A DNA stretch of 29,123 nt from positions 1 through 29,123 of IMG/VR virus record IMGVR_UViG_3300042505_001681. One strand, written 5' to 3'. Numbering within the stretch: the first letter of the stretch is position 1; each line of letters begins with the position of its first letter. The notes under the pieces were generated by a model that had not been told where the DNA came from, did no database searches, and saw only the letters and a list, made by a program, of their open reading frames with translations. The position numbers and the translations under genes were made by a program. The stretch is from a virus. This document shows, one piece after another, positions 2,649 through 20,032 of this stretch.

Positions 2649-3249
2649 AATTAAATTTATCAAACATATACTTTTCAGTTTTATATATTATTTCTTTTGA
2701 TTTATCTGATATTGTGCGATTATATTCTTGCATGTTTTTACTTTTTAACAATTTTGGATCGGTGTTAATAATGCATAATAAATGCTGAAATCTTTTTTCT
2801 GCAAATTCTTCCTCTGCGAGTGTCAAAGCTTTATGCAAATCTCCGAAAAGATTTTCTGTTTTGCCAATAAAATTCATCTTTATATTTGAATTGTATAACG
2901 GGTCATCTCCAGTATATCTGGATACGAGTTTAGAATAATGCCCCATCCAAAAAGGACCATATTCTTGGACCCAAGTATCGAAATCCGGGCATGTTCTTTC
3001 CATCAAACTCAATCTGTCTTGTTTGCTCCATTGCCAGAAAGATGGCCACCAAGTATACGGATGACGAACAAAGCAAAAATTGTATGTATTTTCGCTTTCA
3101 ATCATTTGATGAAGAAATAAATGACCATTTTGTGGAGAGTTGTACCTTTTTTTAGCCAATTTCAATCTAAACAAAAGATTTTGCACAACAGTGCCTCCAC
3201 ACTTGGGTATATGAATAAAACTTGATTTATTTAACAAAAGATTGCTCAT
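2638..3249 (-). CDS. Sulfotransferase-family protein
   Basis: The protein (203 residues) has the two PAPS-binding signatures of carbohydrate sulfotransferases. The 5'-phosphosulfate loop is FIHIPKCGGT (11-20), and the 3'-phosphate region is FVRHPYTWW (60-68). After the first loop comes NGHLFLHQM, with His residues of the kind found near the active site of the heparan 2-O-sulfotransferase-like group. The usual reaction is transfer of sulfate from PAPS to a sugar or protein hydroxyl. Its place at the end of a run of glycosyltransferases suggests a sugar substrate, which is inference. Its start overlaps the preceding glycosyltransferase stop (ATGA), so it is cotranslated with it. No PAPS synthesis genes are in the window, so the donor would come from the host. 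Confidence 0.8.
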   Translation of the reverse strand: MSNLLLNKSSFIHIPKCGGTVVQNLLFRLKLAKKRYNSPQNGHLFLHQMIESENTYNFCFVRHPYTWWPSFWQWSKQDRLSLMERTCPDFDTWVQEYGPFWMGHYSKLVSRYTGDDPLYNSNIKMNFIGKTENLFGDLHKALTLAEEEFAEKRFQHLLCIINTDPKLLKSKNMQEYNRTISDKSKEIIYKTEKYMFDKFNYEP

Positions 3250-4430
3250 AGTTTAATAAGCGAGGGTGTAATGTCTCTTAATTCTCCATTTGTTTTTAGT
3301 TTAAATATTCCAAGCATCATTTCGGAATCTGGCTCATACCCATCCGATATGATTGTGCCAAGATTTTGTATGATGCTCATATTTTCCATAGGACTATTGG
3401 CTATAAAATCCTTCTGTGAAAAATACAATAGCATATTGTTTTTGTTTTGCTCAATATAATCGTGATTGAATATGCGAGTTCGTAAATCTACATTAGAATT
3501 TGGCTGTTCTCTGGCTATATATCGTTCTGCCAATATAGAGTTGTCGATATAGATGTGTGTGGCATATGGCTCTATATGATAAATAAAGTTTTCATCAGTA
3601 ACATCTGTAACTACAAATCCAATATTCAGTTTCTTTGATATGATTGGATGTTGATATTGATTATTCTGAATCCAACTCTGCCACTTTCTCATATAATATC
3701 TGGCAGAACGATTTCGCATAGCGTGAAACTTTGGATCTTGTGTTTGCTTTTCGACGCCATCTTGAAACTGCCCACCTCTACAAGTAAAATGATATACAAG
3801 AGCATCCCACGATTGTATCATTTTACATCCACTCAATATCATTCTCTGGAATATATCAGAGTCTTCATAATATGAATGCAGCGTTTCATCGTGCATACCA
3901 ATATCTGTCAATGTCTTTTTGTATGTCAGCCACGGTGCAAATATTCCGTTGGTAATAACATCCTTGTTTTTGACATTCAAGTTATCAACATAAGCATCAA
4001 ACTCACTCTTCTTGAAATCTTCAGGATACATTCCAAAATGCTCTACTATCTTTTCTTTTCCCGCTGGATGTAATGGCGGTTCTATTCTCGTCGCAGCCAC
4101 AACCGTATCCGCCTTTAGATGCTTTATTAGATTAATATCAAATCCCTTGCCCATATACATATCAGCGTGGAACATGCACACAACATCCGAAGTAGATTGT
4201 TCTATGCAGCGATTATATCCATAAGCAATACCTTTATACTCACCTGTAGTATTTTTTGTATATTTTACTTCGGGAGCATTATACTTCAGCCATTCTTCGG
4301 TTCCATCATTGTCGGCATCTATATACACAACTATTTCATACTGAAGTATAGAGTTTTCCTTAATAGATTGTACAGAACCCTTCAAATATCTAAGGTTGTT
4401 TTTTGTTGGCAGGCAGTATGATATTTTCAT
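3246..4430 (-). CDS. GT-A glycosyltransferase, family 2-like, with extra C-terminal domain
   Basis: The first 240 residues are a GT-A nucleotide-sugar transferase. MKISYCLPTKNN forms the first strand, IDADNDGTEEW follows, the metal-binding DXD-type motif is HAD at 88-90 (CMFHADMYMG), and a probable catalytic base is in YYEDSDIF (Glu189/Asp190), followed by VYHFTCRGG. The last 150 residues (from about 245) form a separate domain without an assigned function (NIGFVVTDVTDENFIYHIEP). It is a paralogue of the gene at 4889-5779, with the same order of motifs. The donor and acceptor are unknown. The start overlaps the stop of the 61-residue gene (ATGA). Confidence 0.82.
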   Translation of the reverse strand: MKISYCLPTKNNLRYLKGSVQSIKENSILQYEIVVYIDADNDGTEEWLKYNAPEVKYTKNTTGEYKGIAYGYNRCIEQSTSDVVCMFHADMYMGKGFDINLIKHLKADTVVAATRIEPPLHPAGKEKIVEHFGMYPEDFKKSEFDAYVDNLNVKNKDVITNGIFAPWLTYKKTLTDIGMHDETLHSYYEDSDIFQRMILSGCKMIQSWDALVYHFTCRGGQFQDGVEKQTQDPKFHAMRNRSARYYMRKWQSWIQNNQYQHPIISKKLNIGFVVTDVTDENFIYHIEPYATHIYIDNSILAERYIAREQPNSNVDLRTRIFNHDYIEQNKNNMLLYFSQKDFIANSPMENMSIIQNLGTIISDGYEPDSEMMLGIFKLKTNGELRDITPSLIKL

Positions 4431-4612
4431 GTTTTTCCGTGTTCTATTCCGACTATGTCAAGTAGTTGTTGTTCTTTTTCAGTCATTTCGTTGTATACTC
4501 TATACAACTCTTTTCGTGTCTTGTTGGCAAGTAATCCATCCTTCTCGCCTTCATCAATGCAGCGTTGTAGTTTATAATACAACTCAAAATATTTTTTAGC
4601 AGCCTCTGTCAT
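4427..4612 (-). CDS. Small helical protein, 61 residues, MTEAAKKY start
   Basis: The protein MTEAAKKYFELYYKLQRCID continues with GEKDGLLANKTRKELYRVYN and ends EMTEKEQQLLDIVGIEHGKT. It is almost wholly helical and charged, as in a small two- or three-helix adaptor. I do not recognise it. Its first eight residues are identical to those of the next gene upstream (4609-4905), because both start regions carry the same 25-base repeat. Start and stop overlap the neighbours as ATGA on both sides. Confidence 0.65.
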   Translation of the reverse strand: MTEAAKKYFELYYKLQRCIDEGEKDGLLANKTRKELYRVYNEMTEKEQQLLDIVGIEHGKT

Positions 4613-4613
4613 A
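4589..4613. repeat. 25-base direct repeat, copy 1
   Basis: These 25 bases (beginning atattttttagcagcc and ending ctgtcata) are identical to 4882-4906. The copy covers the start codon and first eight codons (MTEAAKKY) of the 61-residue gene. The copies lie 293 bases apart, flanking the whole 98-residue gene. Confidence 0.9.
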
Positions 4614-4905
4614 ATTTTTCATTTACTATAGTTGCTTCAAATTCTTCAATATAGCACCATTCACCATCCCACCGTTCTTCTCCAACGGCATAACCAATGT
4701 TCTGTTCGCCAACATTATCTTCACATACCCGAACTCCTCTAACAAATAGACCTGCCTCCTTTATTGCCGTTTGCCATTGCTCTAATGTAATGCGATACAA
4801 ATCATTCGGCGGATTGGAATAATAATCATATACTTCGGTTCCTGCTTTGAACCAAGTATCATGTTTGGCGATCAATTTTACATATTTTTTAGCAGCCTCT
4901 GTCAT
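4609..4905 (-). CDS. Unknown protein, 98 residues, MTEAAKKY start
   Basis: The protein begins MTEAAKKYVKLIAKHDTWFK and then changes to a mixed domain with LYRITLEQWQTAIKEAGLF, VCEDNVGEQNIGYAVGEE and RWDGEWCYIEEFEATIV. Only the first eight residues resemble the following gene; the rest is unrelated. The start at 4905 overlaps the last 17 bases of the upstream glycosyltransferase, and the stop overlaps the next start as ATGA. No known family is recognised. Confidence 0.65.
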   Translation of the reverse strand: MTEAAKKYVKLIAKHDTWFKAGTEVYDYYSNPPNDLYRITLEQWQTAIKEAGLFVRGVRVCEDNVGEQNIGYAVGEERWDGEWCYIEEFEATIVNEKL

Positions 4906-4906
4906 A
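4882..4906. repeat. 25-base direct repeat, copy 2
   Basis: This copy is identical to 4589-4613. It spans the stop codon of the upstream glycosyltransferase (4889-4891) and the first eight codons of the 98-residue gene. The exact identity over 25 bases suggests a recent duplication or recombination event at gene starts. Confidence 0.9.
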
Positions 4907-5779
4907 TAATTCTGGATTGTTATTATAGCGAGTTCGCATTTGTTCTGACACTTTTATGAAACCAACTTCATCATATGATGGCGGTTCTCCCCATAATGTC
5001 AACCAAGTTTTAAAGTTTTTCTGTTCGCTTAACTTTTGTCTATCGGATGTACCAACCAGTTTGTCGTGCTGTCCAAGAAAATGACTACTACGTGCTCCAA
5101 AATGCCATACAAGTGCTTTTGAAGTAACCACAAAGTCGTATCCTTTTATCTGCATCAATACATTCTGCATCATATCCTCATACGATGTAGGAGCAAATCG
5201 AGCATCGTTATTTATGAAATACTTGGTTCGCATCATATATGATACGCCTTCTACTTTTCTAAAACCAGATGGGTTTGGCGATTGTACGAAATGATCGGCC
5301 CAATATAGAAACTCCTCTTTTAGAAAATCGTGATGATATACACCAAAACCACCATTTACGGGGGCAAACATTGTTCCAACCCTATCTTCGTTGTTGAATA
5401 TGTTGGGCTCAAGACGCCAAGCACAAGCAACTAACGGTTTTTCTGTGCTTGAAACAAGATCAAGTAATGGCTTATCGTAATGGCGGCTAATATAAAAATC
5501 ACTATGAATGAGGCTAAAGTATTCTGTTTTGACTTGCTTGATTGCTTCATTTACACCTCCTCCTATACCTTTTGGGACTTGGTTATATTCTACAATGGAA
5601 GTTATGTCACCCTGATGTTTCAACCATTCTGCGGTTTCTTCATCATTTTCAACATATACCAAAATTGGTTGTTTTTTATAAAAAGCATTTTCTCGTATGG
5701 ACTCCACCGCGAGCTTGAGATATGGAAGTGAGCGAAAAGTATTAATCAGCCAAGAGAACTTTATATCATTATTATTCAT
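4889..5779 (-). CDS. GT-A glycosyltransferase, family 2-like
   Basis: The 296-residue protein has a GT-A domain: FSWLINTFRSLPYLKLAVESI at the N-terminus, VYVENDEETAEW (41-52), GIGGGVNEAI, and a DXD-type motif HSD at 92-94 (SLIHSDFYIS). A probable catalytic pair is in SYEDMMQ (Glu201/Asp202), followed by LVWHFGARSSHF. It would transfer a sugar from a nucleotide donor in the cytoplasm. The donor is unknown. It resembles the gene at 3246-4430 in motif order but lacks that protein's C-terminal domain. The start at 5779 overlaps the end of the upstream glycosyltransferase by eight bases. Confidence 0.82.
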   Translation of the reverse strand: MNNNDIKFSWLINTFRSLPYLKLAVESIRENAFYKKQPILVYVENDEETAEWLKHQGDITSIVEYNQVPKGIGGGVNEAIKQVKTEYFSLIHSDFYISRHYDKPLLDLVSSTEKPLVACAWRLEPNIFNNEDRVGTMFAPVNGGFGVYHHDFLKEEFLYWADHFVQSPNPSGFRKVEGVSYMMRTKYFINNDARFAPTSYEDMMQNVLMQIKGYDFVVTSKALVWHFGARSSHFLGQHDKLVGTSDRQKLSEQKNFKTWLTLWGEPPSYDEVGFIKVSEQMRTRYNNNPELYDRGC

Positions 5780-6542
5780 ATTTTTCAGCTTCTGCTCTAA
5801 GAGCCATATAATCGTTGTACATATTTGTTTTTACAAAGAAATTCTTCATTCCAGTTTCAGCAAGGCGGCAATATGTTGGAATATCCAGTCCAGCTACACC
5901 TCTTTTTACTGTAAGAGAATTGTGATGTAGAATACAGGCTCTATCAACTACACCAATCTTATATCCAAGTTTTTTAGCAGTCAGAGCAAACAGCCAATCT
6001 GGTCCCCATCCGTACATAAGGTCCGAATCTATATTTCCAACCGCTTCAATCAATCTACGAGAAATAAGAGGGCACTGAAAATCGGAATATACAACTTGTC
6101 TTATTTCCTTAGAACATCTGCTATGCATTCCTTTCCAATGACATTGTTGATTTGGTTCTATGTTATAGAAAGATGGAGCAACAATATCATACTTTATTTC
6201 TAGACTTCCCCACTTTCCGGCGAATATCTCATCGAACATTTCTTCTCTTAGCGTTCTTACAAACTCATATGGATGAATTGTAAGGTCATTGCTAAGAAAC
6301 AATAAAGAATCATATTGCGGATTTTCTTTTACAAACTCCATCGAGGCATTCAATCCGCCTCCAAAATATACATTTGTTTCCAACTGAAATGAAGTATATT
6401 TGCTTCTACCTTCAGGTTTAGATGCGTTATCTAATACAAACAACTCATAATCGTCTCTTTCATACGGCTTTAGAGACTCATACAGCATATCTGTATAGTC
6501 TGGTAAGTTGTGATTTAGAATGATTGCGGCGGTTTTACCCAT
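5772..6542 (-). CDS. GT-A glycosyltransferase, family 2-like (rhamnosyltransferase-type pattern)
   Basis: The start at 6542 (MGKTAAIILNHNLPDY) is preferred over ATG 6557, because a good ribosome site GGAGGA lies about eight bases before it. The 256-residue protein shows VLDNASKPEGRSKY (37-50), FGGGLNASMEF and a DXD-type motif SND at 84-86 (LFLSNDLTIHP). A later segment, YGWGPDWLFALTAKKLGYK, matches the D/E-D region of family 2 enzymes, followed by ACILHHNS. The donor is unknown. The start overlaps the stop of the membrane-protein gene by eight bases. This is one of the clearest Shine-Dalgarno sites in the window. Confidence 0.82.
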   Translation of the reverse strand: MGKTAAIILNHNLPDYTDMLYESLKPYERDDYELFVLDNASKPEGRSKYTSFQLETNVYFGGGLNASMEFVKENPQYDSLLFLSNDLTIHPYEFVRTLREEMFDEIFAGKWGSLEIKYDIVAPSFYNIEPNQQCHWKGMHSRCSKEIRQVVYSDFQCPLISRRLIEAVGNIDSDLMYGWGPDWLFALTAKKLGYKIGVVDRACILHHNSLTVKRGVAGLDIPTYCRLAETGMKNFFVKTNMYNDYMALRAEAEKYE

Positions 6543-6960
6543 AACTGGTTCCTCCATTGAATATTTTCATTTTGATACTTTTGCCAGACATCTCGGCGGG
6601 TTCTATAAAGAACTTCTTGTCTGGTTGCGTAATGCTAAAAAACAGCTCAAGTTCTTCTTCGTCATCCGCAAACATCATAAACGATTCTTCTGTTCCACTT
6701 TCTCTGCATTTGAACAGGTTGTATTTCGTAGTTGCTACAGTAGTATATCCTTCTCTATGCTTCATTGCCTCGGATATAATCATAAATTCGGCTGCAATGA
6801 TTGCTGCTACTTGTATAGTTGTTACAATATTAGTGCGCCAAGTGTCATTCAGTATAGCGTCCTTTATATAGAATAAAGACATACCCATTAGCGGCAGACC
6901 AATGATGGAAAATATAACCATCAAATAAAAATACAAACTTTTCTTTGGTTTAGAAGTCAT
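6535..6960 (-). CDS. Membrane protein with two N-terminal helices
   Basis: The 141-residue protein has two hydrophobic helices, at about 10-31 (YFYLMVIFSIIGLPLMGMSL) and 45-63 (IVTTIQVAAIIAAEFMIIS). A soluble C-terminal part follows with an acidic stretch (FADDEEELELFFSI). It probably sits in the inner membrane with the C-terminal domain in the cytoplasm. I do not recognise the family. It has its own promoter, so it can start a second transcription unit inside the glycan island, and it overlaps the next glycosyltransferase. A scaffold for glycosyltransferases or a role in membrane export is speculation. Confidence 0.65.
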   Translation of the reverse strand: MTSKPKKSLYFYLMVIFSIIGLPLMGMSLFYIKDAILNDTWRTNIVTTIQVAAIIAAEFMIISEAMKHREGYTTVATTKYNLFKCRESGTEESFMMFADDEEELELFFSITQPDKKFFIEPAEMSGKSIKMKIFNGGTSYG

Positions 6961-7008: not shown

Positions 7009-7887
7009 TTATATGGATTTTATTATATCTATGATTTGTTGAGCACGAGTTTCTGCACGATGATGTACATTTACTTTGCTGTATATTCTTTCTGCCATAG
7101 TTTCACGAACATATTCGTTATTTAACAAATACTCTATTTTTTCAACAGCTTCTTTTGGAGTAGAATAATACATTATATCTTTACCATCTACAAATAGGTC
7201 ATATATCCCCGTGGATGTAGATATTCTATTTGTAACTACGGCAAGTTTGCAGCCGCCCGCCTCAAATAATCTACGAGTTACTTCGTCGTATCTGGCATAC
7301 TGAAACGCAACTGTGCCAGAATTATAAAATGATGTATTTTCTTGAGCAGGTATTTTTTTGTTTATGAACTTATCACCAAGCGCAGATTGAACATAATCCA
7401 CACCGGGTCTATCTCCACAAGTTGTGATACATACGTTCTTTCTGGGAATTTCTTCTTTATATTTAAATAAAAACTCATCTCCCCAGTGGTTGAGCCAATG
7501 AACGTGTTTAAATCCCATCTCCTTATATCTTGCACAACATCTCGCGTCCGGTGTATATATCGCATCCGCTATTTTTGCTCGCTCAAATCCCTGACCAAAT
7601 GTCTGTGGCTCGTCTCCCATATCAAGTATCAGTTTTGTTTTACTAATAGTCTTTAGTTTATTTAGAGAACTATCGAGAGAAGGCGATGTCCAAGGCCAAA
7701 AAACGCTTACGAAGTCATATTTTTCTATATTTGGATACAATCTATCCAAATTACAGTTAGCGGCATCAAACTTATATACATCTACGTTATGTCCCAATCG
7801 CTTGAAGGCAAATGAAAGTCCGAGAGGACAGTTCCAATACTCCTCTGGTTGATTTTCATCTCCGTGCCACAACATTGCTATGTTCAT
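7009..7887 (-). CDS. GT-B glycosyltransferase, CgeB-like
   Basis: The 292-residue protein looks like the CgeB/Glyco_trans_1_2 group of GT-B enzymes. The N-terminal Rossmann-like half starts MNIAMLWHGDENQPEEYW and has LSFAFKRLGHNVDVY. The C-terminal half has RRLFEAGGCKLAVV (206-219), LFVDGKDIMYYSTPKEAVE (231-249) and a typical tail with RETMAERIYSKVNVHHRAETRA in segments. These match the donor-binding half of that group. It would add a sugar of unknown type. The start overlaps the SDR stop as ATGA, and the gene ends 49 bases before the membrane-protein start. Confidence 0.8.
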   Translation of the reverse strand: MNIAMLWHGDENQPEEYWNCPLGLSFAFKRLGHNVDVYKFDAANCNLDRLYPNIEKYDFVSVFWPWTSPSLDSSLNKLKTISKTKLILDMGDEPQTFGQGFERAKIADAIYTPDARCCARYKEMGFKHVHWLNHWGDEFLFKYKEEIPRKNVCITTCGDRPGVDYVQSALGDKFINKKIPAQENTSFYNSGTVAFQYARYDEVTRRLFEAGGCKLAVVTNRISTSTGIYDLFVDGKDIMYYSTPKEAVEKIEYLLNNEYVRETMAERIYSKVNVHHRAETRAQQIIDIIKSI

Positions 7888-8708
7888 AGTTTTTCAAGTA
7901 TCTTATCCACCGCCTGAAATATAGTGTATTTTTGACGAAATCCAAGATTTCTTATCTTTTCGCAATCCATAAAGAAGTTCGGTGCTTGAACTATTTGATG
8001 AAACTCTGGTACATCAACGTATGTTATTTTACTTGTAGATCCGGTTTTTTTGATTGCATAATCAATGATTTCGACAAGTTTAATGCTTTCTTCTGTACCT
8101 ATGTTATATATTTCATTCAATTTTCCACTGTAAGTCACCAAGTTTATCGCAGCGCATACATCTTCAACGTGCATGAAGTTTCTGTAATTGTCACCTTTGT
8201 ATATGCTTACTGGCTCGTTTCTGACAATGTTTCCGATAAGATATTCCAATGCGTTTTTCTTTTTTCCTGCACCAACATCTCCGCCAATTACATTACACAA
8301 ACGTAATATTCTATAATTTCTGTGGAATGTGCGGCAAAACGACTCTGTTAAGTCTTCTGCTGTTTTTTTGGTGATTGAATAAAATCCTTTGGGATTACAC
8401 GGGTCTCCTTCCTTGGCTGGGCGATATTTGGTGTATCCCTCGCCATATACAAACCAGCTACTTACAAAGTTGAACGTGCCTTGAACGTTTGGCAATACAT
8501 CCATTAGCTTATTGAGATTGGTATTGATATCCTTATGAAGATCATCAAAGACATGATAATTGTGAGTTGTGCTAATAAGATACAGCACATCTTTCAAATT
8601 CTCGGACCAATTTTCGTCGCGAGGCATTATTATGCTTTTTTGCGGATATAGTTTGGCAAAATTGCTGCCAACAAATCCAGAGCCGCCGAATATTGTTAGT
8701 TCGTCCAT
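7884..8708 (-). CDS. NAD(P)-dependent sugar epimerase/reductase (extended SDR)
   Basis: The 274-residue protein is an extended short-chain dehydrogenase. The nucleotide loop is FGGSGFVGSNF (7-17), the catalytic Ser region is FVSSWFVYGE (81-90), and the YxxxK pair is Tyr110/Lys114 (GFYSITKK). FMHVEDVCAAINLV is the usual late motif of the family. Such enzymes act on nucleotide-linked 4-keto sugars as epimerases, dehydratases or 4-reductases. Its gene overlaps the end of the RfbH/E1-like gene by 13 bases. Together with that neighbour, this suggests the final 4-keto reduction or an epimerisation in 3,6-dideoxyhexose synthesis, as with CDP-abequose or paratose synthases. The exact reaction is inference. 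Confidence 0.82.
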   Translation of the reverse strand: MDELTIFGGSGFVGSNFAKLYPQKSIIMPRDENWSENLKDVLYLISTTHNYHVFDDLHKDINTNLNKLMDVLPNVQGTFNFVSSWFVYGEGYTKYRPAKEGDPCNPKGFYSITKKTAEDLTESFCRTFHRNYRILRLCNVIGGDVGAGKKKNALEYLIGNIVRNEPVSIYKGDNYRNFMHVEDVCAAINLVTYSGKLNEIYNIGTEESIKLVEIIDYAIKKTGSTSKITYVDVPEFHQIVQAPNFFMDCEKIRNLGFRQKYTIFQAVDKILEKL

Positions 8709-10006
8709 GTTGATAATACGGTTTCAATATGATTTAGATTATCCGAAGATATTGTTGGAGCACAGCCTAAAAAGAATACAAGATCAAGAACTTTGTTTGA
8801 TTCTGGATATTTCTTATAATCGTCGAGATGCTTGTATCCATTATGCACAAGCAAGTTTCCAGCAAAATAGTTTCTTGTCTGAACACCGTTCTTTTCCAAG
8901 AACGTAACGAGCGTTTCTTTTTGCTTTTTATCTCTGCAAATAATAGGCACGCCAAAAGGAACCCAATCTGTTTCAGCAAATGTGTTTGGAAAATTCAAAC
9001 CATCGACATACTTCTTCAATGCAGATTGTATTGCGTCTTTATTAGATTGTCTTGTCTTACAGATATAATCAAGTTTCTTTAACTGCTCTAGTCCTATAGC
9101 GCCTTGGAGGTCCAGCGGTTTCAAGTTCCAGCCGATTCTATTAAACACATATTTATGATCAATGATAAGCTCTGGGAACTCTGGTAACCAGTTTGAAAAT
9201 CTCTTATTACACGAACCGTTACACAACAAGTTGGCTGCTCCCACGCAATAGCAATCTCTACCCCAAGTAGCAAAACTTCTGGCCAAATCAACAATTTCCT
9301 GTATATCCGAGGATACCATTCCACCTTCAAGTGTTGTTATTTCGTGTGCTGGATAAAAAGAACAACTGGATACTACGGCATATTCGTTCAAATATTTCCC
9401 TCGCCACTTAGAACCAAGAGAATCGCAATTATCCAACAAAAGTTTAAGGTTATGCTTTTTGGTAATAGCGAGCATTTCATCCATGTCAGGAGGATTCCCC
9501 AATACTGGACTCAAAAATACTGCTCTGGTTTTTTCATTTATCTTTTCTTCGATCTTTACCAAATCAAAGTTCAATGTAGACCATTCAATGTCTATAAACA
9601 CAGGCTTTAGATTATTGTGTACAATTGCAGATACAGTAGTTGGAAATCCTACCGCAGAAACAATGATTTCATCGCCATCTTTCCATCCAAAATACTCTTT
9701 GCACGCAGCAATCAATAGTAAGTTGGCACTTGATCCGCTATTGCAAAAGAACGAAAACTTATTATTGATATGTCTTCCAAACTCTCGCTCAAATCTTGCA
9801 CAAGTTTCTCCGGACGAAGACCATTTGCCAAAAAGCAAAGTTTCTATCGCAGCAACAAGTTCTGTTTCATCAAAGTATGGGCCAGAATAATACACTCTCT
9901 TTTTGTCTTTCGCCACAAGATTGTGGGCAAATTTGGGAACAACCCCGTGTTTTTGTTGCATGCTAGCAACAAATTCTTGTATGTCTTTAGTATAGTCTGA
10001 ATTCAT
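8696..10006 (-). CDS. rfbH: RfbH/E1-type NDP-4-keto-6-deoxyhexose 3-dehydrase, iron-sulfur and PMP
   Basis: This DegT/DnrJ/EryC1-fold protein (436 residues) has His221 in place of the PLP-binding Lys (SFYPAHEITTLEGG, 216-229), the mark of the 3-dehydrases that remove the C3 hydroxyl of nucleotide 4-keto-6-deoxy sugars. The four cysteines known to hold the [2Fe-2S] cluster in the Yersinia E1 enzyme occur here as Cys194, Cys252, Cys254 and Cys262. This is exactly the C-X57-C-X1-C-X7-C spacing. Asp192 fits the residue that binds the cofactor ring nitrogen. The enzyme belongs to CDP-3,6-dideoxyhexose synthesis (abequose, paratose, tyvelose, ascarylose). Neither its reductase partner nor a 4,6-dehydratase is in the window. 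The symbol is by homology; the nucleotide and sugar are not proven. Confidence 0.9.
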   Translation of the reverse strand: MNSDYTKDIQEFVASMQQKHGVVPKFAHNLVAKDKKRVYYSGPYFDETELVAAIETLLFGKWSSSGETCARFEREFGRHINNKFSFFCNSGSSANLLLIAACKEYFGWKDGDEIIVSAVGFPTTVSAIVHNNLKPVFIDIEWSTLNFDLVKIEEKINEKTRAVFLSPVLGNPPDMDEMLAITKKHNLKLLLDNCDSLGSKWRGKYLNEYAVVSSCSFYPAHEITTLEGGMVSSDIQEIVDLARSFATWGRDCYCVGAANLLCNGSCNKRFSNWLPEFPELIIDHKYVFNRIGWNLKPLDLQGAIGLEQLKKLDYICKTRQSNKDAIQSALKKYVDGLNFPNTFAETDWVPFGVPIICRDKKQKETLVTFLEKNGVQTRNYFAGNLLVHNGYKHLDDYKKYPESNKVLDLVFFLGCAPTISSDNLNHIETVLSTWTN

Positions 10007-10011
10007 AACTT

Positions 10012-10728
10012 TTATGGTAAAGATTTATTGTTTTCAAAGTCCGCCGGGGCGTCGCTCATATATATATGCGAAGGATACAAATCACTGTGGTGACTTTTTG
10101 GATGAGAACTGTGGAAAGAGAATGGATTAAATTCCGGCGATTCTCCTATCCAAAATTCATAATAAAATCTGTCAAATATTTGAGGAGGTGTTCTCAACGT
10201 TCTTGCGTATTGGGATGTCGTCCACCACATATTACCAGAAAAATGAGGAGATACACGTTTGCTGCAATTTATTCCCGCACAATTATATTTACCAGAGCGG
10301 AGAATAGTAGCACAATCTTTGTATCTGGTTATATAAAAATAGTTTAGAAGATTTCTCCAATCCGTTTCTTGTGGCCGAGACTGCGTCGTTCCTTTGGTAT
10401 GCACATAAAGAATTAAAGAATCATTTGTTTTTGAAAAATCCGACGCTCCTTTTATTCCATTATATACCGTATTATATTTCTCTAGATTACCATTCGGGTT
10501 TAAAAACTCTCCAACGTTGCTGGGGGTTGTAATTTTTACAACCACCTTCGGTTTGTTTAAAATAATCTGCCGATACTCTTCTATTTCGGCGTCTCCGCCG
10601 ATTAAATACGCATAAATTTGTTCACATTCATCATACAACCCAGACTTATGCATTAATTCAAACTGTTCTGTTACAACTTCTCTCCAATTATTAATCAAAT
10701 AGCAATGATAGAATACGTTAATTTTCAT
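10012..10728 (-). CDS. Glycosyltransferase-like protein of polysaccharide loci
   Basis: The 238-residue protein starts MKINVFYHCYLINNWREVV and has LILYVHTKGTTQ (105-116), a helix WRNLLNYFYITRYKDCA, CAGIN and the strong motif PHFSGNMWWTTSQYA (161-175). The set YxHTKG plus HFSGNxWW is common in glycosyltransferase-like proteins of surface polysaccharide clusters and large viruses. I take it as a nucleotide-sugar transferase with unknown donor, without assigning a CAZy family. The C-terminus is rich in Ser, His and Pro (HSSHPKSHHSDLYPSH). Its start overlaps the end of the next gene upstream by 11 bases. Confidence 0.68.
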   Translation of the reverse strand: MKINVFYHCYLINNWREVVTEQFELMHKSGLYDECEQIYAYLIGGDAEIEEYRQIILNKPKVVVKITTPSNVGEFLNPNGNLEKYNTVYNGIKGASDFSKTNDSLILYVHTKGTTQSRPQETDWRNLLNYFYITRYKDCATILRSGKYNCAGINCSKRVSPHFSGNMWWTTSQYARTLRTPPQIFDRFYYEFWIGESPEFNPFSFHSSHPKSHHSDLYPSHIYMSDAPADFENNKSLP

Positions 10729-11449
10729 AGTTTTGTAATTTTTTAAATATATTTTCCCAATTTACGACGGGGCTCATGAAATCCGGTTCACAGTGTGTTG
10801 AATAACCCGGTATTGGATTGATCAGAGTTTTTCCCGTTGATGTAAGTTCATAAAACTTATCAAAGTCTCTCGTTAGACCGCCCGCAACATCGCAGTACTT
10901 TACGTGAATAGCAAAGTCCCGTTTGAATGTTTTACCCAAACAAGCATATGTGTTTGTTGTATTAGGAATCGTTTTCCAGTGAACACTTGGCGTAAGTCCT
11001 ACTTTTGACATAAGGTCTTCGTACATCTCAAAAAAATATTTATCGTTATGATCGTATAATGTTATATAGTCTACGTCAATATATTTAAATCCCTCTCTCA
11101 ATATTTTTGGCCAACCTATATTATGTAGATAATCATCTTCAACAAAATATAAAATATCATAGTCCGAGAAGTCGGATGCTTTGACTGTATCTAATAAGTT
11201 CAAAAAGCTTTTGGCATCATTTCCACCTTGCTTTTCATATAACTTGAACTTTCCTTTATACTTGTCGTTCTCCAAGAAATGCCCACTCCCCGTCAAAGTA
11301 CCGTCAAAGCATATGTTTAGTTCACAGTCTGTATCAAGCGTATTGATAAAACTGTTGAAACAACCTTCTCTAGTAAACCAGCTTGGTCTGGCCTTATTGG
11401 CTGAGTTACTGGAGAACTTACAATGTCTGGCAAATATCCTTATTTTCAT
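10718..11449 (-). CDS. GT-A-like glycosyltransferase with EDD motif
   Basis: The 243-residue protein has an N-terminal strand MKIRIFARHCKFSSNSANK, a middle NICFDGTL, and the metal-site motif YFVEDDYLHN (101-110) with Glu104-Asp105-Asp106. Later segments are YITLYDHNDKYFF, TYACLGKTFKRDFA and a terminal PGYSTHCEPDF. The EDD motif and the His near the end fit a GT-A transferase of the type found in phage and giant-virus clusters. Donor and acceptor are unknown. The start overlaps the stop of the fusion protein gene as ATGA. Confidence 0.7.
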   Translation of the reverse strand: MKIRIFARHCKFSSNSANKARPSWFTREGCFNSFINTLDTDCELNICFDGTLTGSGHFLENDKYKGKFKLYEKQGGNDAKSFLNLLDTVKASDFSDYDILYFVEDDYLHNIGWPKILREGFKYIDVDYITLYDHNDKYFFEMYEDLMSKVGLTPSVHWKTIPNTTNTYACLGKTFKRDFAIHVKYCDVAGGLTRDFDKFYELTSTGKTLINPIPGYSTHCEPDFMSPVVNWENIFKKLQNYEN

Positions 11450-12804
11450 ACTCGCTCAAATATTACAAAATTATTTTTGATCCACGAGACTGTTGACGCC
11501 ATTCTGGCTTTTATAGACTCTTCCTTTAACACAGCAAAACCTTTTTTCTCAAATATGGAAACGACTTCATTTATATTCTTTTCATTGAAATGCCCCCACC
11601 CTCCTTGACCACGGTATGCCCAGCTTATGAAGAGATATTTATCGCAGTGTCTAACGATATTATCTATTGCGGCGTCTTCAAATTCGGCAGGTATATGCTC
11701 CAGTACTTCTATACACATCACAGTTCCTTTTTTGTTGAGGTCAAAAGGAGCCCCCAAATTATAGTCGAGAATATTTTTATATTCCAGATTTGAATGACTT
11801 GACGCATGCGGTTCAACTCCAATTAGTTCTAGTCCTTGTGTTCTTTCCGATATATATTTCAGAAAATAGCCAGTAGCGCAACCAAAATCCATTATTATTT
11901 TTTGATTTTTGTCTTTTAAGAATGTTAACAAATAGTCCATTAACCCAGTATCCAAGTTTTCTGAATGATTTTCTGAACTATCGTTCCAGTTCCATGAACC
12001 TTTATCTAATATTTTTATACCCATAGCACCATCGTCGGTGACGGAAAATTGCTTTAAATAAGGCTCAACGACCTCATACTCTCGGTTATCACCGAATATG
12101 ACATCCTTTCCTCTAAAAGGTTTTTCAAATTCTTCATGTACCAAAGCAATCCAGTTTTTATCTCTATTGTGACTCCATGCGGTAACTTTTTTTAACATCG
12201 CTTGCTTACTTCTTACCCACGAATAGTGATGAATAAATGGCTTGCCGTCCAGCATACAATTTCTGGCTCTTTTCGGGCAGGCGTCGAATATACCAGATCG
12301 TTCGTGTTCATGAAATATTAAAGAATCATCTCGTACCAAAGGTCCGTTTTTGACTAGAACAATTGAATCCTCCGTGTGCTTGGTTCTATACTTGAAATCT
12401 CTAAAATAAAAATAGTTGGCTATTTTATAACCATCCAACATATTCCCACCTGCTTTTTGTTGAGAAAACCATTCAACGAATTTATCCGACTCAATTATTT
12501 CGTCAGTGTCCAACAACAAAAAATAATCAACATCCGATGATGCCAGCTCAAATCCAAGTTTTCTGGAAGCATTACAATGCCATCTAGAAGTCATTGATGG
12601 TTCATATGAAAATTCGACGAACTGAACTCCCGTATTTTCTCGAATGGATCGGCTTAATAGGTCTTTATTTTCTGGTGTTCCGTCGTGAAACCGATCACAG
12701 TATGGCACAATTATCTCCGATGAAAATGATCTTACACCGTCTATACACGGTTTAAGATACATGTAGTCATTTGTACAGTAATTTATTATAGTTGCTATTT
12801 TCAT
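11446..12804 (-). CDS. Fusion: GT-A glycosyltransferase plus SAM methyltransferase
   Basis: The 452-residue protein has two domains. Residues 1-250 are GT-A-like, with MKIATIINYCTNDYMYLK, a Rossmann-type start, and the DXD motif LLLDTDEII with Asp99 and Asp101. HHYSWVRSKQAMLKKV lies near 192-207. Residues from about 285 are a class I methyltransferase: the SAM loop is IMDFGCATGYFLKYI (304-318), the acidic ribose-binding site is GVEPHA, and motif III is VMCIEVLEHIP (362-372). A single chain could thus add a sugar and methylate it or its neighbour. This is inference; the family match is clear for both halves. The gene is separated from the mini-GDPD gene by four bases. Confidence 0.82.
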   Translation of the reverse strand: MKIATIINYCTNDYMYLKPCIDGVRSFSSEIIVPYCDRFHDGTPENKDLLSRSIRENTGVQFVEFSYEPSMTSRWHCNASRKLGFELASSDVDYFLLLDTDEIIESDKFVEWFSQQKAGGNMLDGYKIANYFYFRDFKYRTKHTEDSIVLVKNGPLVRDDSLIFHEHERSGIFDACPKRARNCMLDGKPFIHHYSWVRSKQAMLKKVTAWSHNRDKNWIALVHEEFEKPFRGKDVIFGDNREYEVVEPYLKQFSVTDDGAMGIKILDKGSWNWNDSSENHSENLDTGLMDYLLTFLKDKNQKIIMDFGCATGYFLKYISERTQGLELIGVEPHASSHSNLEYKNILDYNLGAPFDLNKKGTVMCIEVLEHIPAEFEDAAIDNIVRHCDKYLFISWAYRGQGGWGHFNEKNINEVVSIFEKKGFAVLKEESIKARMASTVSWIKNNFVIFERV

Positions 12805-12808
12805 TATA

Positions 12809-13243
12809 TTATATGTTTATGTCGTCTACACATACACCATGTATTTTGTGTGTATATCTATATGTTCTCATAAAAGTTTTATCAGGTAATACCAATATTC
12901 CACTGGAGGTATAATAATTTGGATATGCCCAAATAATTCCTTTGGACGTTAACGTGTATTTATCTTGGTCGTGCCAAAAACAATGCATTCCTATATCTCT
13001 TAATTTTTCCAATGCTTCTATGTTTTTGGCGTGGCACCATAAGTGCGATTCGTTCTGTTTTAAAAAAGACTCTTCAATTTTATATTGAGGAAAATCGTGC
13101 CCCAAAAACCAAACTCCATCAACTAATCTTACATCTATTTCTACATCAATACCCTTTGATATAACCAATTCAATTTGATCAGGTGTATTTTCCACACTGT
13201 GGTCTGGACCGTACAAATTTCCTCGGTGACTTACTATAATCAT
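12809..13243 (-). CDS. Mini glycerophosphodiester phosphodiesterase-like protein
   Basis: The 144-residue protein carries the GDPD signature order. It has SHRGN (5-9), ENTPDQIE (18-25), GIDVEIDVRLVDG with Glu35 and Asp37, and FLGHD (47-51) with the second His. Normal GDPD proteins are about 230-350 residues. This is a shortened barrel ending with HGVCVDDIN. The key acid/base and metal ligands appear to be kept, so it may cleave or bind a phosphodiester. It is one base from the HAD-nucleotidyltransferase gene, so the two probably serve one pathway that adds or remodels a phosphodiester-linked group. That role is inference. Confidence 0.75.
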   Translation of the reverse strand: MIIVSHRGNLYGPDHSVENTPDQIELVISKGIDVEIDVRLVDGVWFLGHDFPQYKIEESFLKQNESHLWCHAKNIEALEKLRDIGMHCFWHDQDKYTLTSKGIIWAYPNYYTSSGILVLPDKTFMRTYRYTHKIHGVCVDDINI

Positions 13244-13244
13244 A

Positions 13245-14612
13245 TTACTTTTTCAGATACAAGTCCAGGTCTTCTGGCGTACCCAGACCCCACATTTTGT
13301 CAACAGTGTATGTTTTAAAAATTTTTCCATCAGCAATTGCTTCGTTATATACCGGACAAATATAAAACTCGTTGTTCACTCTTAGGTTTTTGGATATCAT
13401 ATTTTCGGCATACTTTACATAGTCTTGACCCTTAGACCAGTAGTATATTCCCACCGAAGCCTTGTCCGATATTGGATTTTTTTCAGCAACCTCCGTTATG
13501 ACTCCCATTTCATCTGTTTTACAAAAAGACCATTTTGGGTGTGTGGAAGTGAATGTCAGAATACCACCGTCGATACCGTCGGCTTCCATACTATACATAA
13601 ATTTGGAAGACTCCCATTCAACATATTGATCCGAATTCGCAATCAAAAGTGGCTGTTCATTATCTATATACTCCTTTGCCAGCAAAGTTGTACAGGCGGC
13701 ACCCTCAGTAACAGAGTCTATTTGTATTATTTTACAACCCGGTGCAACATTGTTTAATACCGTTTCCAGACTATATCTGGAATAGTGTTCTTTCAATACC
13801 AAAAATATATAATTGGCTTCTATGTTTATGTTTTCAACCACCAACTGTATCATCGGCTTTCCTTCAACGTCAATAAGTGGTTTTGGGAATGTATATCCAG
13901 CCTTCTCAAATCTGCTCCCTCTACCGGCCATAGGAACTAAAATATTCAGTTTATTATTTTTCCATTTCATAGAATTTTCTTTTTTGTTTAAAAAGTTATA
14001 CGCGAACGAAATTATAGAATTGTCGTTTAAATCTTTTGGGCTACTAACTGGAAATAGCCTTGCTCCAGATGCTTCGGCGGCGGATCTTCCCACATAAGAG
14101 TCTTCAACTATTATAGTATTTTTTGGAGATACGTTTGCTATTATCATCGCACGCAAAAAAATTTCAGGGCTTGGTTTTGAGTGAGAAACATCCTCGTTTG
14201 ATAGAAAAAAATCCACGTATGGGATAAGTCCAAGTTTCAATAACGAAATGTTTACTGTCTGTCTGATAGAGTTGGAGCAGACGGCAATAGTATAACCAAG
14301 TTCTTTCAACTGTTTGAACTTATCTACAAGACTATCATTTTTTTCTACTGCACTCAACATTTCATACGTGAACAGTTGTTTATTTTTCCATACCTGCTCG
14401 TGAACATGCTCAGGTAATTGCTTATCTTTTTTCAGAAAATCCAATTTTGTCTTGGTACTCAATCCATCATATTTGAAGAGATGTTCTTTTCTGGATATGA
14501 TATATCTATAATCTATTTGAGCCAACGCCTTATTCAAAGCATTATAATGAATTTCCTTGGCGTCTAACAACACGCCATCCAAATCAAATATAATTAAACG
14601 AGATGGTATCAT
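13245..14612 (-). CDS. Fusion: HAD phosphatase plus nucleotidyltransferase
   Basis: Residues 1-210 form a HAD phosphatase: the nucleophile motif is IFDLDGVLLDA (Asp10, Asp12), VCSNS is at 111-115, Lys146 is in HSKPSPE, and VEDSYVGRSAA is at 169-179. Residues 215-455 form a sugar-nucleotide synthesis domain with VPMAGRGSRF (226-235), the Lys motif FPKPLIDVEG, EGAACTTLLA and the metal motif IANSDQY (324-330). One chain would dephosphorylate a sugar or polyol phosphate, and it or a partner would activate a phosphorylated compound with CTP or another nucleotide. An internal ATG sits exactly at the domain border (Met215), so the second domain might also be made alone. The gene shares one base with the FkbM gene upstream (TAATG). 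Confidence 0.85.
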   Translation of the reverse strand: MIPSRLIIFDLDGVLLDAKEIHYNALNKALAQIDYRYIISRKEHLFKYDGLSTKTKLDFLKKDKQLPEHVHEQVWKNKQLFTYEMLSAVEKNDSLVDKFKQLKELGYTIAVCSNSIRQTVNISLLKLGLIPYVDFFLSNEDVSHSKPSPEIFLRAMIIANVSPKNTIIVEDSYVGRSAAEASGARLFPVSSPKDLNDNSIISFAYNFLNKKENSMKWKNNKLNILVPMAGRGSRFEKAGYTFPKPLIDVEGKPMIQLVVENINIEANYIFLVLKEHYSRYSLETVLNNVAPGCKIIQIDSVTEGAACTTLLAKEYIDNEQPLLIANSDQYVEWESSKFMYSMEADGIDGGILTFTSTHPKWSFCKTDEMGVITEVAEKNPISDKASVGIYYWSKGQDYVKYAENMISKNLRVNNEFYICPVYNEAIADGKIFKTYTVDKMWGLGTPEDLDLYLKK

Positions 14613-15430
14613 TAATATACTTCAAATCCCCCGTAATTTATTTCTTTTTGCCAATCAGTTCTATCAAAATTCAACTTTACAGATTTTCCGTCTACGATTT
14701 GTATTGGATACCCAACGTCCTTCATTATAATATCAAGTAAATCTTTTTTCTCTCTTGGAATAGCTACGTGATCACACGGATATTCATTGTTTATTCGGAC
14801 CAGTATATAATCCAACGACAAAATTTTATTGAGCAATGTTTCTGAACTCTGCCCAAAACAATTCAACCACTGGTTTTCGACTTCAATAAACATAATAGGT
14901 CTAGAATTTTGAATAAGTTTTTCGGCACCTTCCAATAAAAATATCTCAGATCCTTGTACATCTATTTTCAAGAATGATACACCCGAACTTATAACTTCGT
15001 CAATTTTTATCATTTGTACTACATCCCCGCCACCACCAATTTTAGTTGCTCCTATATTAATTCCTTGAGGTCTATCTACGTCAACATAGTCCATTTGAAT
15101 CATTTTGTTCTCATTCCCTAACGCCACATTGAAACAAAATACATTTCGTAGGTCGTTGATGAATACATTACCACATAGCTGTTGATATATTACTCTCAAT
15201 GGTTCAAATGCCAAAACTTTTCCGGCGGGTCCAACCATTTTTGCCATCGTTACTGCATGATATCCCAAGTTTGCTCCGCAATCCAAACAAATATCTCCGG
15301 GTTTTATTACGTTTTTGGCTACATTATAAAAATGTGGCTCAAAATCTCCATTGTTCATCAATGCCTGCCCCAGTGCGTCGTTTGGCAATATCAAAAACTT
15401 ACCGTGTCTGGCTTCTATTATGTTTGGCAT
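14612..15430 (-). CDS. FkbM-family SAM methyltransferase
   Basis: The 272-residue protein has the FkbM signature. The SAM loop is CLDCGANLGYHAV (48-60), the acidic strand is VLAFEPL (72-78), and the typical FLKIDVQGSEIFLLEGAE runs over about 153-170. FkbM enzymes O-methylate sugars or polyketides, and in surface-polysaccharide loci they usually methylate sugar hydroxyls. Methylating a glycan made by this operon is the likely role. The gene ends in TAA sharing a base with the next start, and is two bases from the upstream glycosyltransferase. Confidence 0.88.
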   Translation of the reverse strand: MPNIIEARHGKFLILPNDALGQALMNNGDFEPHFYNVAKNVIKPGDICLDCGANLGYHAVTMAKMVGPAGKVLAFEPLRVIYQQLCGNVFINDLRNVFCFNVALGNENKMIQMDYVDVDRPQGINIGATKIGGGGDVVQMIKIDEVISSGVSFLKIDVQGSEIFLLEGAEKLIQNSRPIMFIEVENQWLNCFGQSSETLLNKILSLDYILVRINNEYPCDHVAIPREKKDLLDIIMKDVGYPIQIVDGKSVKLNFDRTDWQKEINYGGFEVY

Positions 15431-15431
15431 A

Positions 15432-16376
15432 TTATTTTATGAATACTTCTTCAAATTGCTTCATCACGTTGGATGGAGAAAATTTTAATGAATAACAATC
15501 CCAGTCTATATCTTTAACATACTCTTTGTCAATTTGTAATAAGTATGAAGTTAGTTCTTGTTCGTTTTTATATTTCAACGCCTTTTCACCAAGCATATGC
15601 AAGTGCGCTTTCATATACCACCCATATCCACCGTCATATGTAAGTACTGGTTTGTTGAAAGAAGAAAATTCCGCGACCGCCAACCCGAACGTTTCGCCGT
15701 CACTTCGAGCGTGTATCATGGCATCGCACGTATTTATAAACTCACTTTTATACATCAAATTTGGATTGAATGGTAAAAATTTTACTTTTGGGTGAGAAAC
15801 AAATGGTTTAGTATTCAAAAATACGGCATATAAATCGTTTCTTTTTTCAATCGCAGTTATCAATGCTCGGTGCGCGATTTGTAAATCAAATTGATTGTAT
15901 CCACCCAATCTTCCCAATACGAAAGCATTTTTTGGTATTCCAAGTTCGTCGTGCAGACTTTCGTTTGTTTTTGGTAGATTTATTATATGCGGAACCCATA
16001 ATGGCTGATTAAACATTTTTGCTAACCATTCGCTTACGCCAGCGTATACATTGCCATGTGGTTCTGTCATACTGAATATACAGTGGATTGCGGTTTTACA
16101 ATTTGATGGGGTAGTTCCTTCATTTTTTCCGCCCGCCTTTATCATATAAAACAGATCTATTTTTTCACGTTCTACCAGAATTGGAATCTCACTTTCATTT
16201 TCATATAGATGATAGTTCAACCCATCAAACTTTTCCATTGGGCAAGTTGATTTTGATCTAGAACTCATTATGATTGGGTTATGACCAAGGCAGTCTCTTA
16301 TTCCCATATAATAGTCGTATGGCACTGTACCACAGCCTCGGTGATCAAGTTGTTCTACATGTATTGCTATTTTCAT
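15432..16376 (-). CDS. GT-B glycosyltransferase, GT4-like
   Basis: The start at ATG 16376 (MKIAIHVEQLDHRGCGTVPY) is preferred. It shares one base with the SDR stop (TAATG), and upstream extension would duplicate SDR coding space. The 314-residue protein has a GT-B layout, with the E-x7-E motif of retaining family 4 enzymes in SDGETFGLAVAEF (Glu228 and Glu236). GRLGGYNQFD marks the start of the donor-binding half. It would transfer a sugar from a nucleotide donor. The N-terminal half contains several Cys and a segment KAGGKNEGTTPSNCKT of unknown use. Confidence 0.84.
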   Translation of the reverse strand: MKIAIHVEQLDHRGCGTVPYDYYMGIRDCLGHNPIIMSSRSKSTCPMEKFDGLNYHLYENESEIPILVEREKIDLFYMIKAGGKNEGTTPSNCKTAIHCIFSMTEPHGNVYAGVSEWLAKMFNQPLWVPHIINLPKTNESLHDELGIPKNAFVLGRLGGYNQFDLQIAHRALITAIEKRNDLYAVFLNTKPFVSHPKVKFLPFNPNLMYKSEFINTCDAMIHARSDGETFGLAVAEFSSFNKPVLTYDGGYGWYMKAHLHMLGEKALKYKNEQELTSYLLQIDKEYVKDIDWDCYSLKFSPSNVMKQFEEVFIK

Positions 16377-17110
16377 TAGGTCATTCTTCGTAGAGTATAA
16401 ATCTCCTTGGATAAATCCTTGAAGTTTCTCCAACAATCCCACTTTGCACTTATAAATTTACCAGAAACACCGTCACTTTCATCGGAAATTAACCATTCGA
16501 CCAACTGCATAGCCGGTTCGGGGTCATCTCCGCTTTCGCTTTGACGCTTGGCTTTTTCGTATTCCTGAATACCAATTATTTCTTGCCCAGCATTTATTGG
16601 ACCATCAACGATTCCGGTCTTTATAGCGCCGGGAGCTATTGCGTTAATATCCAAGGTTGGCTCTTCCAAAGCCATCGTTTCCACCAATCTAACTACGGCA
16701 GTTTTTGCTACTGCGTATGCAGAAAAATATGCTCTGCCATTTCCAGCACCACCTCCAGCCATGCATACTATCTTTTGACGTTTGTTGGTACACATCAATG
16801 GATAAAATTCTTTCAAAACATTATATGTTCCATCCAAGTTTATTCTTATTGTTTGTGACCAATTTTCTGGATTTGTCTTTGACACCTTTCCCAATTCACC
16901 CTGCGTCCCCGCACACGTAATGATTGCATCAAAATAAACATCGCAATCAAGAAAGTAGTTAGACCATCCACGTACTTCTTCTATATTTGACACATCGCAA
17001 GGATATTTTGAAGAACGAGAAAGACCATAGACATTGTGTCCATTTTTCTCAAATCTATCGGACAGCATCTTTCCAATACCAAAAGTATTACCTGTTATTA
17101 GAATGTTCAT
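16376..17110 (-). CDS. Short-chain dehydrogenase/reductase (classical SDR)
   Basis: The start ATG 17110 (MNILITGNTFGIG) gives a normal classical SDR of 244 residues; the longer frame adds an unrelated N-terminus. Motifs are TGNTFGIG (6-13), CAGTQG (66-71), RINLDGTYNV (89-98), then MAGGGAGNGRAYFSAYAVAK, with Tyr132 and Lys136 as catalytic YxxxK, and NAIAPGAIKTG (156-166). The glycine-rich MAGGGAG stretch is seen in an SDR branch frequent in polysaccharide loci. It would reduce or oxidise a sugar-linked ketone. The gene overlaps the end of the UDPGDH-like gene by 23 bases. Confidence 0.84.
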   Translation of the reverse strand: MNILITGNTFGIGKMLSDRFEKNGHNVYGLSRSSKYPCDVSNIEEVRGWSNYFLDCDVYFDAIITCAGTQGELGKVSKTNPENWSQTIRINLDGTYNVLKEFYPLMCTNKRQKIVCMAGGGAGNGRAYFSAYAVAKTAVVRLVETMALEEPTLDINAIAPGAIKTGIVDGPINAGQEIIGIQEYEKAKRQSESGDDPEPAMQLVEWLISDESDGVSGKFISAKWDCWRNFKDLSKEIYTLRRMT

Positions 17111-17831
17111 CGTTCGATTTCTTGATTGATGGGATGAGAGACAGTCCAAGATTGTATTTTTGATCCAATTGAATGAGGTTATGTATTTCTCTTCCAAGTG
17201 TGTCGTTGGTATATGGACCACCGGCTTTTAGATAAGACAACTTACCTATGCGTTTGTCTGTTTGCAATCCTGCGGTTATATCTGACGAATTTGCTCCCAC
17301 CGCCTTTGCAACTTTATCTATTTCATTTATAAATGCAATAGACATTGCCAAATATGAATTCAATGCGTGTTTTACCATTTCAGCAGATTCCAAACTCATC
17401 CAAATTATATTAGAAGACAATGGACGAAACAATTCGGTAAGTACATCTTTTGAGAATCTATCACATCCAACAACAATTCGTTCTGGGTTCAGAAAATCAT
17501 TTATTGCTCTACCTCGCCTTAGATTTTCTGGAGAACAGGCAATTCTGATATCTGTATATACGTTCTCTAGCATTCTGCACGTTCCAACTGGAACTTGGGT
17601 AGATATCAAAGCAATAGCATTATTTTTGGCAAATGGAAGTACTCTTCCCAACCATTCAAATATGATTCTTGAATCTGGCTTTCCGTCCTTATCGACCGGT
17701 GTATCATAGCAAACCCAAATAACGTCACTATCTCCAACCTTAGAATCATCAACATTTACTTGATGAAATTGTTCCATACAAGCGGCAGTTATATATGCCA
17801 AATGTCCGTGTCCTATTACTGATATTTTCAT
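17088..17831 (-). CDS. Truncated nucleotide-sugar dehydrogenase-like protein without the catalytic Cys
   Basis: The 247-residue protein belongs to the UDP-glucose/GDP-mannose dehydrogenase family. It has an NAD loop ISVIGHGHLAY, the pattern ISTQVPVGTCRML, CSPENLRRGRAINDFLNPER (99-118) and the central helix ESAEMVKHALNSYLAM with Lys154 and Asn158. The catalytic loop of the family, GxGFGGSCLPKD, aligns here with GGPYTNDTLGRE (204-215), so the cysteine is Thr211, and the following Lys and Asp are Arg and Glu. The usual C-terminal UDP-binding domain (about 150 residues) is missing. Full four-electron oxidation to a uronic acid is therefore unlikely. It may oxidise once, act as an epimerase or be a binding protein. 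Confidence 0.8.
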   Translation of the reverse strand: MKISVIGHGHLAYITAACMEQFHQVNVDDSKVGDSDVIWVCYDTPVDKDGKPDSRIIFEWLGRVLPFAKNNAIALISTQVPVGTCRMLENVYTDIRIACSPENLRRGRAINDFLNPERIVVGCDRFSKDVLTELFRPLSSNIIWMSLESAEMVKHALNSYLAMSIAFINEIDKVAKAVGANSSDITAGLQTDKRIGKLSYLKAGGPYTNDTLGREIHNLIQLDQKYNLGLSLIPSIKKSNDEHSNNR

Positions 17832-17834
17832 AAT

Positions 17835-19813: not shown

Positions 19814-19832
19814 TTATATAACCTTTTTTTTA

Positions 19833-20024
19833 TTATGGTGCTGTACCGGGTGTGTTTTGACCTTCTTGTTCTTGAATAATCGCTTCCATCTCGGACTTAA
19901 CATCGTTGATGCGATCCTTGAAGTCAGTCATAACAACTCGCTTTTCCATTTCGATTTCACGAAGTTGCTTGGCAAGTTCGTAGATTTTTGTCTTTGCTTC
20001 TTCTTTAGTCAATGCTTTAGCCAT
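19833..20024 (-). CDS. Small coiled-coil protein, 63 residues
   Basis: The sequence MAKALTKEEAKTKIYELAKQ continues through LREIEMEKRVVMTDFKDRIN to a final QEGQNTPGTAP. The helical heptads from about 5 to 52 predict a coiled coil, with a short flexible Gly/Pro tail. It lies between two glycosyltransferase genes, eight bases from the one upstream. I do not recognise a family. It could pair with a larger protein as a small adaptor, which cannot be tested here. Confidence 0.65.
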   Translation of the reverse strand: MAKALTKEEAKTKIYELAKQLREIEMEKRVVMTDFKDRINDVKSEMEAIIQEQEGQNTPGTAP

Positions 20025-20032
20025 AATATTAT

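Follow-up and report, generated by a model that had tools for sequence, protein, structure and literature searches.

The locus described here raises the question of whether a phage encodes an iron-sulfur sugar 3-dehydrase and, if so, which nucleotide sugar such an enzyme would act on. The window, meaning the whole stretch of DNA analysed, comprises 29,123 bases of IMG/VR virus record IMGVR_UViG_3300042505_001681. It was assigned to a T4-like phage because of its neighbouring genes, which include those for clamp-loader A, a T4-type RNA ligase, a dNMP kinase-like protein, a dUTPase and UvdE. A 297-kb relative (L020) has the same gene order as the window, an 80% identical dehydrase and a T4 gp23 capsid gene. 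The window also carries a GMP reductase-like gene at 215-1294 (324 bits against a cut-off of 344), which is encoded on the plus strand, whereas most of the window is not.

Positions 8696-10006 are filled exactly by an intact ORF of 436 amino acids on the minus strand, a strand that the original prediction did not specify; it is annotated from profile, structural relative, tree and fold as a putative E1-type [2Fe-2S]/PMP 3-dehydrase of a phage-type clade. The protein is a member of the DegT family (Pfam PF01041, E = 9e-70). Its nearest solved relative is the E1 dehydrase (3bcx, 5e-71), with ColD matching more weakly (4e-43), and E1 is also the top fold match of the predicted structure (pLDDT 82). 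Together with His221 and the conserved cysteines described below, the family and structural matches bear out the original prediction of an iron-sulfur-type 3-dehydrase in a phage, and the enzyme class supports its pointer to 3,6-dideoxy sugars. Within the predicted structure, the Fe-S loop (residues 248-295) has a pLDDT below 50, and the geometry of the cluster ligands is therefore not fixed by the model. Comparison with L006 indicated purifying constraint on the gene (pN 0.040 vs pS 0.452); dN/dS is saturated for most pairs, and these values are given for the least diverged pair only. Conservation across the clade and a pN far below pS indicate more than a chance resemblance. Judged by its sequence, the ORF is a genuine, conserved, E1-type iron-sulfur-class sugar 3-dehydrase in a phage, for which a bound cluster is predicted.

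His221 (9344-9346, minus strand) stands where aminotransferases have Lys, as had been predicted, and is invariant. Cys194 (9425-9427), Cys252 (9251-9253) and Cys254 (9245-9247), all encoded on the minus strand, are putative cluster ligands 1 to 3 by homology and are likewise invariant. The cysteine spacing had been given as exactly C-X57-C-X1-C-X7-C. Those letters are present (C194-X57-C252-X1-C254-X7-C262) but do not form the cluster motif. In an alignment of 17 phage proteins (A1), C194, C252, C254, C266 and H221 are invariant, while position 262 in the other proteins is A, S, P, K, E or another residue. Cys262 (9221-9223, minus strand), which differs in most relatives, was accordingly rejected as the fourth ligand on the ground that it is not conserved among clade proteins. 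Cys266 (9209-9211, minus strand) is the conserved candidate and aligns with the last Cys of E1 before (K/N)KRF. The E1 segment CYCAPG----CDNTCKKRF aligns with CYCVGAANLLCNGSCNKRF in the phage protein, which relative to E1 has a four-residue insertion just ahead of the fourth ligand. The cluster ligands of E1 are, we assume, C193/C251/C253/C261 (Agnihotri et al. 2004), and because of the insertion C261 of E1 corresponds to C266 of the phage protein. The alignment thus indicates that the homologous cluster spacing is C-X57-C-X1-C-X11-C and that the X7 distance to C262 is a coincidence.

All 131 viral and all 80 bacterial members of the family that were compared have the His and the four Cys. Among the viral proteins 127 show X11 spacing, and among the bacterial RfbH proteins 67 show X7. 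Some bacterial RfbH-like proteins have X9-X12 spacing, so X11 does not exclude membership of the wider E1/SpnQ class. A review confirms for both E1 and SpnQ a [2Fe-2S] motif of four cysteines, together with the Lys-to-His change (PMC8987622). Two other identities were ruled out. Sugar aminotransferases (DegT/DnrJ/EryC1/StrS) have a catalytic Lys in place of His221 and are separated from the phage enzyme in the tree. ColD, the GDP-4-keto-6-deoxymannose 3-dehydratase, shares the His-for-Lys change and the fold but lacks the iron-sulfur cysteines, four of which the phage enzyme has, and falls on a separate branch. Very divergent ColD-like proteins do occur in some of these phages, as second DegT proteins with the His and without cluster cysteines (L016:6540-7703, L017:3874-5037 and L223:455-1624), alongside the Fe-S dehydrase.

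Phylogenetic analysis united 55 proteins of phage origin and one of cellular origin in a single clade. Its deep member L044 is about 43% identical, and a stem of 0.93 (SH-aLRT 100) joins the other 55 rows. A tree against RfbH, ColD and aminotransferases had been proposed as a check on the original prediction, and the dehydrase did not fall among the aminotransferases. The phage-type clade is a sister of the group formed by bacterial RfbH and E1, not a part of it, and is separate from ColD and the aminotransferases; the placement holds once cellular Bdellovibrionota members are added. These form one group (support 99) nested in viral diversity, and L060 sits elsewhere inside it. Deep branching order within the clade is weakly supported, and we draw no conclusion on the direction of transfer. 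The phylogeny indicates that the dehydrase belongs to a distinct, mostly viral clade of its enzyme family.

This chemistry had been thought rare for a virus, a view contradicted by a profile scan of viral contigs that found at least 571 relatives in IMG/VR. Cyanophages S-H68, S-B05, S-B43, RB11-B and RN05-S carry the dehydrase at 53% identity, and rfbH/ascC/ddhC auxiliary metabolic genes of phages have already been reported from viromes (PMC10653327, PMC11295528). Among sampled whole genomes, a phage-type protein (>490 bits) was found in 6 of 369 from the phylum of L061, a Bacteriovoracales genome, and in 1 of 399 from the phylum of L060 (Pseudomonadota); the remaining matches in those samples scored 338-407, as for classic RfbH. 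The Bdellovibrionota loci L279-L283 and L061, from relatives of predatory bacteria, carry a phage-type dehydrase mostly accompanied by the SDR gene described below and in some cases by divergent rmlAB. An unverified 'Salmonella phage' contig (L224, OR851175.1) encodes a protein that groups with E1; it is therefore probably bacterial DNA contaminating a phage record, and it was excluded from the locus counts.

The dehydrase gene adjoins a gene for an extended SDR of 274 amino acids (7884-8708, minus strand), with a 13-nt overlap between its start and the dehydrase gene. The original prediction had described the partner enzymes as missing. This stands for the E3 reductase, not found in about 50 phage records, and for the 4,6-dehydratase, not found in the 60-297 kb contigs nearest the window; the overlapping SDR had been overlooked. 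Distant phages retain the pair, at 55-57% identity for the dehydrase and 43-47% for the SDR, which lies directly upstream of the dehydrase in 25 of 108 loci and directly downstream in 40. Residues S83, Y110 and K114 of the SDR are conserved. Where 4,6-dehydratases (RmlB) have STDEVYG, the SDR has SSWFVYG. Since the Asp-Glu acid/base pair ahead of the VYG motif is replaced by W85-F86, the SDR was rejected as the missing 4,6-dehydratase. Its fold is that of a generic sugar SDR, with the GDP-6-deoxymannose reductase RMD (6x3b) among the best matches. The SDR is probably a C4 ketoreductase, reductase being its likeliest role, and it could also be an epimerase or an epimerase-reductase.

The substrate was approached through the genes surrounding the pair. 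Locus counts were made after thinning near-identical loci, leaving 87 phage-type and 77 RfbH-type loci; these loci share ancestry and differ in flank length, so the counts are not independent and p-values computed from them are not probabilities. A homologous SDR is present in 59 of the 87 phage-type loci and in none of the 77 RfbH-type loci. RfbF/RfbG relatives show the opposite pattern (0/87 vs 49/77), and RmlA or RmlB occurs in 24/87 phage-type vs 5/77 RfbH-type loci. The contrast between the two kinds of neighbourhood is plain despite the shared ancestry.

These counts bear on whether the protein is a true RfbH that uses CDP-4-keto-6-deoxyglucose from the host, in which case the phage would tap a pathway of the abequose, paratose or ascarylose type, as the original prediction held. 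RfbH is indeed the best-matching named family (E = 9e-104), E1 is the nearest structure, and the S-H68 copy is annotated as CDP-4-dehydro-6-deoxy-D-glucose 3-dehydratase. The window dehydrase nevertheless scores 347.5 bits, below the RfbH equivalog cut-off of 423, and its cellular clade-mates are likewise below it at 354 and 367 bits. The placement outside the RfbH/E1 clade, the lack of RfbF or RfbG in the phage-type loci and the lack of TIGR02623 in 32 phage records also speak against the CDP chemistry and the RfbH identity, and we regard this reading as unlikely. In comparison with E1/AscC/RfbH (DdhC), the CDP-4-keto-6-deoxyglucose 3-dehydrase, the phage enzyme is alike in fold, PLP-family core, His-for-Lys change and four cluster-type cysteines. 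It differs in its separate clade, its X11 spacing to the fourth Cys (X7 in E1), its score below the RfbH cut-off, its lack of RfbF/RfbG neighbours and its own SDR partner. Both gene sets occur in one Nitrosomonadaceae genome (G045), which holds a phage-type pair (L284) as well as a complete, classic RfbF-RfbG-RfbH operon on a different contig (L285), the three products of which each score above the curated cut-off.

The association with rmlA and rmlB, which had been overlooked, points instead to a dTDP sugar. RmlB and/or RmlA passing curated cut-offs were found near the dehydrase in phages L144, L146, L182, L178 and L222 and in Bdellovibrionota L061, L281 and L279. The genes overlap in the order rmlB-rmlA-dehydrase in L147 and L182, and in L061, L281 and L282 rmlAB is oriented divergently to the pair of SDR and dehydrase. 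In cyanophage RN05-S (L222:5582-6990), a small protein annotated as a cytidylyltransferase, an unexpected type of nucleotidyltransferase for a dTDP pathway, overlaps the cut-off-passing RmlB. RmlB has a role in making rhamnose as well; for this reason, and with RmlA or RmlB in just 24 of the 87 loci, rml adjacency is suggestive only. The mostly viral branch seems to draw on the common, rhamnose-type dTDP-sugar pathway rather than on the CDP-sugar pathway. RmlA and RmlB are absent from the window's own contig clade, and RmlB, GMD and CDP-glucose dehydratase from its nearest large contigs (G001-G003 and G009; 60-297 kb). Since these contigs contain no 4,6-dehydratase, the 4-keto-sugar used by the window phage most likely comes from its host, in agreement with the predicted reliance on host supply.

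GMD-like proteins (330-365 bits, under the 415 cut-off) are encoded near the pair in L019, L040, L144 and L146. A GDP substrate is therefore possible, in which case GDP-4-keto-6-deoxymannose from GMD would be converted by an Fe-S route, with a ColC-like SDR, to a GDP-colitose-like sugar; the presence of RMD among the best fold matches of the SDR would fit. GMD-like genes are, however, rarer than RmlB near the dehydrase (6 vs 20 of 80 viral loci), were not seen beside cellular pairs, and have another explanation in the synthesis of GDP-fucose or GDP-rhamnose. ColD, the GDP 3-dehydratase already known, has no cluster. We consider a GDP substrate doubtful.

As to electron supply, a search of about 50 phage records, among them complete cyanophages and a 642-kb phage, detected no E3-type reductase (PF00175 NAD-binding domain). 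A motif scan found no E3 near 80 bacterial RfbH genes either, and E3 linkage therefore discriminates poorly. Plant-type ferredoxins are encoded in S-B43, RN05-S, S-H68 and G039. SpnQ, an Fe-S/PMP 3-dehydrase with the same chemistry that acts on a dTDP sugar, uses general ferredoxin/flavodoxin reductases (PMC8987622), and the absence of E3 is for that reason compatible with function and not diagnostic, a point that the original prediction had overlooked. As the review describes it, SpnQ resembles the proposed phage system, since its dTDP sugar and general reductases would fit the link to rmlAB in relatives and the lack of an E3. The substrate of SpnQ, dTDP-4-keto-2,6-dideoxyglucose, lacks the 2-OH, unlike the substrate proposed for the phage enzyme.

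When no reductase is present, SpnQ transaminates (PMC8987622). Given that no E3 was found in the phage records, the dehydrase might, without a dedicated reductase during infection, mainly transaminate the keto-sugar to a 4-amino sugar. E1 and ColD showed no transamination when treated likewise (PMC8987622), and the invariant cluster cysteines and conserved SDR partner favour the reductive route, making transamination very improbable.

Our preferred reading, to which we give a slightly better than even chance, is that the E1/SpnQ-class dehydrase and the SDR form a two-gene module converting dTDP-4-keto-6-deoxyglucose to a dTDP-3,6-dideoxyhexose. The substrate, dTDP-4-keto-6-deoxy-D-glucose, would come from host RmlA/RmlB, or in some relatives from phage RmlA/RmlB. 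PMP would form a Schiff base at sugar C4, His221 would take a proton from PMP, and the C3-OH would leave. The putative C194/C252/C254/C266 cluster would pass single electrons from a general ferredoxin of the host, or of the phage in some cyanophages, a donor proposed since the phage records searched yielded no dedicated E3 reductase. The SDR would then reduce the C4 ketone to yield the dTDP-3,6-dideoxyhexose, which phage glycosyltransferases may attach to a virion protein or a host surface glycan. We know of no description of dTDP-3,6-dideoxyhexose as a product of this enzyme class. The broader proposal, that a mainly viral subfamily, marked by a distinct X11 cluster loop and served by a dedicated reductase, makes dTDP-3,6-dideoxyhexoses, with the Bdellovibrionota and Nitrosomonadaceae copies inside viral diversity, appears to us evenly balanced.

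If true, a two-gene phage module would make a 3,6-dideoxyhexose from the common precursor of rhamnose and so offer a compact means of altering a surface glycan or the virion. The virome labels rfbH, ascC and ddhC assign phages a CDP-dideoxysugar step, which the gene neighbourhoods described here do not support. As most viral copies form a separate subfamily, often with a dedicated reductase and with a likely dTDP supply, the CDP pathway call is probably wrong in many datasets.

A candidate user of the sugar is encoded next to the pair, all of the following genes being on the minus strand. This GT1-like glycosyltransferase (7009-7887; PF13524 and synteny) overlaps the SDR stop by 4 nt. Further glycosyltransferase-like genes lie within 3246-6557 (3246-4430; 4889-5779, GT2; 5772-6557). 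On the other side of the dehydrase, the remainder of the sugar cluster spans 10012-21511. It contains genes of unknown function at 10012 and 10718, a gene for a methyltransferase-containing protein starting at 11446, an FkbM gene at 14612, glycosyltransferase genes at 15432, 17835, 18515 and 20033, and at 16376 an SDR gene separate from the partner SDR. The short nucleotide-sugar dehydrogenase at 17088-17831 (247 amino acids) stops inside its central domain, without the C-terminal part of the family. At 13245-14612, a 455-residue fusion protein joins a HAD phosphatase to a sugar nucleotidyltransferase domain.
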